Positions 23,291 through 23,569 of a DNA stretch of 64,000 nt are shown piece by piece. Within the stretch, counting starts at the first letter, position 1; each line of letters begins with the position of its first letter. The notes below the pieces were generated by a model. It was not told the DNA's origin. It did not search any database and was given only the letters and a program-made list of their open reading frames with translations. This DNA comes from Herbaspirillum rubrisubalbicans (GTDB lineage: Bacteria; Pseudomonadota; Gammaproteobacteria; Burkholderiales; Burkholderiaceae_D): the NCBI RefSeq assembly GCF_003719195.1, contig NZ_CP024996.1, positions 4,154,001-4,218,000 of the forward strand, in the 5' to 3' direction. Made by a program: the position numbers and the translations under genes.

Positions 23291-23569
23291 ATGAGCTACG
23301 CAGAAATTTTGAAGATGGCGCTGGACGGCAAGTCGGTGAATTCGCTCGCTAAGCAGTGGGGAATCCCCCAACCGACCCTAGATAAGTACGCTCGGGGCGA
23401 GCGTTTGCCTAGTTTTAAGGCAGCGAAGGCCATTGCTGAGGCGGCTGGGGTTTCAGCCGAACAAATGTTGGAATCTCTTGCACTAGAAGAAGAAACAAGA
23501 AAAGGTTATAATCGCGCTCCTTCAGCTGATGTAGCTCAGTTGGTAGAGCAACTGATTCGTAATCAGTAG
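23291..23569 (+). CDS. Cro/C1-type phage regulator whose 3' end overlaps the tRNA gene
   Basis: A 92-residue DNA-binding protein in the integrated form. The helix-turn-helix is clear (VNSLAKQWGIPQPTLDKYAR, residues 17-36; AAKAIAEAAGVSAEQML). AAGGGG precedes ATG 23291. The last 15 residues (SADVAQLVEQLIRNQ) are encoded by the tRNA-Thr 5' half, and the stop TAG (23567-23569) is supplied by host DNA past the 41-bp repeat. If the ends are joined as in the excised circle, the frame continues through 9678-9738 for 20 more residues (ISRISKSRQR then IRHRNRSRLQ) and stops at 9739-9741, directly at a terminator. The native phage gene would thus encode 112 residues, and integration removes the Arg-rich tail. 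It is likely a lysogeny repressor or excision regulator. Confidence 0.8.
   Translation: MSYAEILKMALDGKSVNSLAKQWGIPQPTLDKYARGERLPSFKAAKAIAEAAGVSAEQMLESLALEEETRKGYNRAPSADVAQLVEQLIRNQ
23507..23512 (+). promoter_or_regulatory. -10 box of the phage-supplied tRNA promoter
   Basis: TATAAT followed by CGCG, 12 bases before the tRNA, the same spacing as on the host side (9620-9625). It lies within the phage regulator coding sequence. No good -35 is seen at 17 bases (TAGAAG). Confidence 0.55.
23525..23565 (+). repeat. attR: phage-derived 5' half of tRNA-Thr
   Basis: 41-bp direct repeat of attL (9637-9677). It marks the right end of the prophage. Confidence 0.85.

Follow-up and report, generated by a model that had tools for sequence, protein, structure and literature searches.

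A filamentous prophage regulator with the phage attachment site in its gene may report integration through an exchanged C terminus

The filamentous prophage in the 64,000-nucleotide stretch of Herbaspirillum rubrisubalbicans DNA analysed here (the window) carries its attachment site, attP, inside the gene of its own HTH regulator, and the ending of this protein therefore differs between free phage DNA and inserted DNA, the latter giving the shorter one. As the original prediction had it, the gene has 112 codons in the free and 92 in the integrated form, and both frames can be read in the sequence. Our preferred explanation, to which we assign a probability of roughly 0.6, is that the C terminus of the regulator reports whether the phage genome is integrated, with the short form as the lysogenic repressor as our best guess. 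The crossover site sits within the regulator gene, at its 3' end. Free or tandem DNA encodes the 112-residue form with a cationic tail, and insertion into tRNA-Thr brings in a host stop in place of the tail and yields the 92-residue form. The long form would behave differently in terms of stability, DNA affinity or oligomerisation, and if the short form represses and the long form is altered, the free genome would, at a best guess, be more permissive until integration. This assignment, with the short form as lysogenic repressor and the long one as altered form, appears to be the most likely one.

The prophage comprises 13.9 kb of the 5.6 Mb genome and lies between 9637 and 23565. Its minus strand encodes a rolling-circle Rep, a secretin, a Zot-like pI ATPase, a small coat protein, an ssDNA-binding protein and a tyrosine integrase, and the pI ATPase, Rep, ssDNA-binding protein and coat protein identify it as an inovirus. 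The relevant features are:

9620..9625, plus strand: TATAAT box of the original host tRNA-Thr promoter, now at attL
9637..9677, plus strand: attL core, 41 bp, the original host tRNA-Thr 5' half
9678..9741, plus strand: codons 93-112 of the tail with their stop, which the free (attP) form gains when joined to 23565
9742..9771, plus strand: terminator-like hairpin right after the tail stop, its stem starting 4 nt past the stop
13720..14601, minus strand: tyrosine integrase
14663..15526, minus strand: rolling-circle replication protein
17090..18397, minus strand: secretin (pIV-like)
18394..19461, minus strand: Zot-like pI ATPase
22185..22514, minus strand: ssDNA-binding protein
22666..23163, plus strand: DUF2726 protein, upstream of the regulator and on its strand
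23291..23569, plus strand: Cro/C1-type HTH regulator, integrated form of 92 codons, with the crossover core within its 3' end and a stop of host DNA
23507..23512, plus strand: TATAAT box in the tRNA promoter brought by the phage; the same bases encode Tyr73-Asn74 of the regulator
23525..23565, plus strand: attR core, 41 bp, tRNA-Thr 5' half and at the same time regulator codons 79-91
23525..23600, plus strand: tRNA-Thr(CGT) found by ARAGORN, with the 5' half from the phage and the 3' half from the host

The direct repeat formed by 9637-9677 and 23525-23565 is exact over 41 bp, and two congeners (L051, L052), in which the tRNA-Thr is uninterrupted between host flanks, show the attB site. Within this genome, the tRNA-Thr is matched over its full length only once, and its two remaining matches belong to tRNA-Phe and tRNA-Lys. 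The phage-borne TATAAT box aligns with its host counterpart at attL as well as with those of two empty sites. Since this box coincides with the codons of Tyr73-Asn74, the phage restores the tRNA promoter as well as the 5' half from within a protein-coding gene, and the Tyr-Asn pair is kept in 17/17 Thr- and Lys-site regulators (alignment A5). At the other end, the promoter and 5' half of the host tRNA-Thr remain at attL, ahead of the tail and terminator (9620-9771, plus strand), and an orphan RNA of ~140 nt is possible in the lysogen. Besides, the prophage carries a three-gene operon (10742-13637, minus strand) which may be defence cargo, as two of its proteins match the PADLOC models Hp1 (1.2e-71) and Hp2 (1.2e-48). 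A fragment of a second integrase (29904-30035, plus strand) is 61% identical to the C-terminal part of the prophage integrase.

The regulator is the last gene before attR, and the 13 codons preceding the crossover are the 5' half of tRNA-Thr(CGT). In the integrated state, the protein has 92 amino acids with the C-terminal end VAQLVEQLIRNQ. Joining 23565 to 9678 extends it to 112 amino acids by 20 extra residues (ISRISKSRQRIRHRNRSRLQ), which include seven Arg and one Lys, up to the TGA at 9739-9741. A frame stays open over 20 codons with a chance of about 0.39 at 51% G+C, so the open frame alone is unremarkable and was rejected as proof of coding; the significance of the tail comes from the comparison with relatives. 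The best PHROG matches of the regulator are transcription regulators or repressors, and its named relatives come from Herbaspirillum. At 1e-5 it had no match in a phage collection in which the record of phiRSS0 was not found.

Five tails at tRNA-Thr sites (the window, L031, L036, L038 and L056) share the frame, the sequence pattern (Arg/Lys) and, within one codon, the position of the stop. For two of them, natural tandem junctions exist in other genomes of the genus. In L036 (G033), the regulator passes the core, enters the left end of the prophage that follows and reaches 113 amino acids with the end LIRNQIARISKSRQRLRQLRRKNFTN, and the junction in L038 (G027) continues as QVSRFSEARQRVRRLRQSRFQ, the regulator ahead of it being a fragment only. 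Thus, where a different junction or frame was looked for, both natural junctions were in the predicted frame. The tails predicted from left ends are QVSRFSKVRQRLRQLRKTKFQ for L056 (G019) and QISRISKSRQRLRQFNRSKFQ for L031. The distance from the stop to the terminator stem is 2-4 nt in the window, L031, L036 and L038.

Among these five sequences, a small set with pairs of common history, pairwise differences amount to 67/34/93 at codon positions 1/2/3. Their protein-level conservation was reached in 0 of 4000 neutral simulations, of which 9% were open in all five tails and 0.6% had the observed third-position share. The pN/pS ratio is 0.46 in the frame of the gene (bootstrap 0.27-0.76) versus 0.62-1.61 in the other five frames, and it is again 0.46 for tail codons 8-19 alone, away from the likely integrase site; for comparison, the HTH body has a ratio of 0.27 (six phages). 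These data argue for selection on the Thr tail at the protein level, even though no single integrated copy encodes the tail joined to the regulator. The tail statistics exclude L066, which has a premature stop and has lost its tRNA half, and a remnant at L036:13522. Both are remnants of other Thr-type left ends in the G033 array and a sign of repeated integration and decay at tRNA-Thr. Concerning composition, the charge of the Thr tails lies between +5.7 and +7.6 per 20 residues, compared with a null mean of 1.6 (sd 1.9). None of them has an AA-type end, in agreement with the expectation that the tail is not ssrA-like, and among the tails of relatives that were read only that of L069 (SNSVAVVAA) ends in AA. 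A search of 392 family genomes for further Thr left ends gave 5 sites, four of them previously known, in 4 genomes that all belong to one genus of 44; a scan of viral contigs for such ends found none.

Relatives of the regulator and the integrase were collected from 13 of 34 genomes of the genus, from IMG/VR contigs, by a genome-contig scan and by three protein searches. The HTH search found a regulator in 13 of 80 IMG/VR loci, and L111-L171, with integrases of at most 55% identity, were left aside. The frame of the regulator crosses the att core in 26/26 tRNA-site loci (8 Thr, 4 Lys, 10 Met, 4 Phe), which are non-independent, were picked for holding a regulator and a recognisable core, and include one with a damaged start (L038). 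Accordingly, a regulator ending before the tRNA segment, which would speak against the predicted architecture, was looked for and not found among these loci. The count does not include L054, L056, L098, L099, L100 and L110, which represent the other prophage end, damaged or separate copies, or cases in which regulator and core were not found together; L032, L033, L092, L093 and L094 duplicate loci that were counted. At the Thr and Lys sites, the gene runs through the tRNA in sense, and at the Met and Phe sites in antisense. In the three protein searches, 35 of 50 distinct proteins have a Thr-, Lys- or Met-coded C-terminal end, and that of one further protein, P0023, looks tRNA-coded. Integrase identity to the window is 70-79% at Thr sites (longest matches) and 57-64% at Lys, Met and Phe sites; the integrase of L056 was left out of alignment A3 because of a stop codon in the frame used. 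Three loci (L095, L101, L107) have a different type of regulator that likewise reads into the tRNA; its matches to PHROG transcription regulators are clear, those to Pfam only weak. Contigs cut exactly at the core (L031, L103, L107, and L101, which both starts and ends with it) were rejected as evidence of circles, since a published inovirus pipeline is described as bounding proviruses by direct repeats and the contigs may be trimmed.

Outside the Thr sites, the tails behave differently from site to site. The Lys tails L054/L101 differ by 9/6/7 at the three codon positions and the Met tails L103/L104 by 3/4/1; without a third-position excess, coding constraint is not visible there. Four of 18 Met-type proteins (P0032, P0036, P0037, P0045) have a tail other than the host-coded SPLL, and those of P0036 and P0037 start with RHILY, resembling phage left ends (RHI, RHM, RHV). 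Two of six Met tails have charges of 2.2 and 2.7. A cationic tail as a rule for the family holds only partly and was rejected, since the charges of the Met tails L098 and L107 deviate from the null by no more than about one sd. Integration at tRNA-Phe changes the end of the protein but does not shorten it: the host-coded end of L027 has 15 residues versus 9 at the tandem junction L050, and the frame of L049 continues for a predicted 5 residues, integrated or free. The expectation that integration truncates the regulator is thus borne out for the change from 112 to 92 codons at tRNA-Thr, and fails at tRNA-Phe.

Related regulators also lie at dif sites. Of 14 such regulators, which are non-independent (the L072 protein is the same as one in L044), five read into dif (L068, L069, L071, L079, L080) and nine end before it (two each in L044 and L045, and one each in L046, L047, L067, L070 and L072), so the swap is dispensable within the family. 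L068 and L079 have their stop TAA within TTATGTAAA, as in the best dif-like match of the window genome, and we infer that this is the host arm; the opposite end of the element has TTATGTCAAA, where the frame would continue. The dif tails are mutually dissimilar. Together with the Lys and Met tails, this indicates that outside the Thr lineage the crossing is conserved and the tail is not. No integrase match was found among the dif-site loci compared. The Zot protein of the dif-site phage L072 is 97% identical to that of the window, which shows an exchange of att modules between closely related phages. In the regulators of L068, L069, L079 and L080, which end in or read through ...YIM, a hydrophobic, membrane-span-like stretch precedes the att site. 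Three more relatives of the regulator are present in the window genome (G000; 2724430, 2730928 and 4906886; L044, L027), two beside dif-like sequence and one in tRNA-Phe.

Two further elements lie between the DUF2726 gene and the regulator:

23191..23199, plus strand: extended -10-like motif TGGTATTGT before the regulator, in a similar place in 20/23 leaders
23225..23250, plus strand: palindrome AGAGTTAATCCATTCGAATTAACTCT, candidate operator in the regulator leader

The motif TGnTATnnT was found at -92 to -100 from the start codon in those 20 of 23 leaders, and a palindrome with 8-bp arms in 15/23 leaders versus 21% of shuffled leaders. The leader palindromes vary from phage to phage, which suggests autoregulation via phage-specific operators. 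From the HTH domain and the palindromes between the conserved -10-like motif and the start codon, we infer that the gene encodes an autorepressor. Copies of the operator outside the regulator leader were looked for at nine loci, seven of which had palindromes, and the top two of each remained unmatched at up to 4 mismatches. For the 92-residue protein, AlphaFold predicts an HTH domain of five helices with confidence and a C-terminal helix with low confidence (pLDDT about 50 over residues 71-92). The prediction for the long Met-type P0036 is alike, with a confident five-helix HTH and a weakly predicted C-terminal helix (pLDDT about 54-57 over 71-106), so structure prediction is of little help for the tail. 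As the predicted C-terminal helix lies beyond the confident HTH, the exchanged part is outside the DNA-binding domain and could affect stability, oligomerisation or DNA affinity.

The reading of the two forms as a report of the integration state draws on the natural joined copies, on the four Met-type proteins with a tail other than the host-coded one, on the selection acting on the Thr tail, on the recurrence at four tRNAs and a part of the dif-site relatives, on the leader elements, and on the XacF1 precedent discussed below. Against this reading, or a simple truncation switch, count the swap without shortening at tRNA-Phe, the Lys and Met tails without visible constraint, the dissimilar dif tails, the nine of 14 dif-site regulators without a crossing and the lack of an ssrA-like end. 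Some of these points would also fit a by-product of genome economy. To cross over within a tRNA, a phage has to bring along the missing half and, at sites read in the same sense, a promoter; the adjacent regulator would merely overlap this cargo, its change of C terminus would be without regulatory function, and the Thr tail would persist simply as a part of the protein. Indeed, the phage-borne stretch restores the tRNA promoter and 5' half, the Lys, Met and dif tails look unconstrained, and the Phe end is swapped without loss. However, the crossing is found again at tRNAs of both orientations, at dif and in another type of regulator (L095, L101, L107), even though the Thr or Lys half, read in sense, leaves a single frame of the three open. 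In addition, protein-level selection acts on a Thr tail that is never joined to the regulator in a single integrated copy. We regard genome economy as a rather unlikely explanation of the architecture.

Even less probable are two further explanations. The tRNA 5' end at 23525 falls exactly on the boundary of regulator codons 78 and 79, and RNase P cleavage at this point would strip the stop from the message after codon 78, so that trans-translation would lower the regulator in lysogens and spare the free form. The reading in sense at the Thr and Lys sites fits this competition, but the Met and Phe sites, read in antisense, and dif share the architecture and leave no room for it, and we give it little credence. 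The regulator could also be mainly a directionality factor of the Cox/Xis type that acts at the att sites, its two ends favouring integration or excision. Such a role would suit a gene at the edge of att, and the Pf4 excisionase XisF4 is described as doubling as a transcription regulator, like P2 Cox. Yet the leader palindromes point to autoregulation, the dif-site relatives retain the gene without an integrase, and the top PHROG matches are transcription regulators or repressors, which makes a Cox/Xis-like function a similarly poor candidate.

In some temperate phages, a repressor gene that contains attP ties repression to integration. In the mycobacteriophage BPs, attP lies inside the repressor gene gp33, the prophage form has 103 versus 136 residues, and the long form is degraded via an ssrA-like tag, these functions having been measured (Villanueva 2015, PMC4557955). 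The window phage is comparable in that attP lies within a putative repressor gene and the prophage form is shorter at the C terminus (112 to 92 codons). Unlike BPs, it is an inovirus without an ssrA-like tag and has Phe-site relatives that are not shortened. The proposal that a filamentous phage follows the logic of BPs was right in structure, and the arrangement is more general than proposed; it is not the first filamentous case, as phiRSS0 and XacF1 are already described in print. For the Ralstonia inovirus phiRSS0, attP lies within the HTH-motif gene ORF13, and integration shortens the product from 156 to 130 amino acids via a new stop (PMC3816273; PMC4471427); different functions for the two forms were proposed by Yamada 2013 (PMC3816273). 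Both are filamentous phages with attP inside an HTH gene whose C terminus changes on integration, but phiRSS0 uses host XerCD and dif, whereas the window phage encodes a tyrosine integrase and occupies tRNA-Thr. Likewise, the Xanthomonas inovirus XacF1 (with Cf1c) has attP within the regulator gene ORF12, which is split upon integration, and deletion of the 5' part of ORF12 made the prophage unstable (PMC5666396, PMC4076744). XacF1 shares attP inside a regulator ORF with the window phage and differs in its use of XerCD/dif; the available descriptions of XacF1 give neither tail conservation nor a second site. A filamentous prophage of Cupriavidus taiwanensis STM 6070 occupies a tRNA-Met site (PMC10011098) and is, like ours, an inovirus with a phage tyrosine recombinase at a tRNA; the passages on this prophage make no remark on its regulator. 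A literature search, mostly of titles and abstract starts and with few subscription journals, found no description of a tRNA-site inovirus with attP in its regulator. New are the tRNA/tyrosine-integrase version, its recurrence, the selective constraint on the Thr tail, and the double use of regulator codons as promoter and 5' half of the tRNA.

In this context, the anatomy of attP within the regulator recurs across a filamentous phage family, at tRNAs in either direction and at dif, and host tRNA DNA serves as coding sequence of a regulator. We see an even chance that a C terminus exchanged by recombination and reading the integration state is a recurrent regulator design of beta-proteobacterial inoviruses, kept as the att module moved among tRNA-Thr, -Lys, -Met, -Phe and dif; regulator codons, tRNA promoter and tRNA half are united in a single piece of DNA in the Thr and Lys lineages. 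This opens up a testable model for how a filamentous phage could sense its integration.
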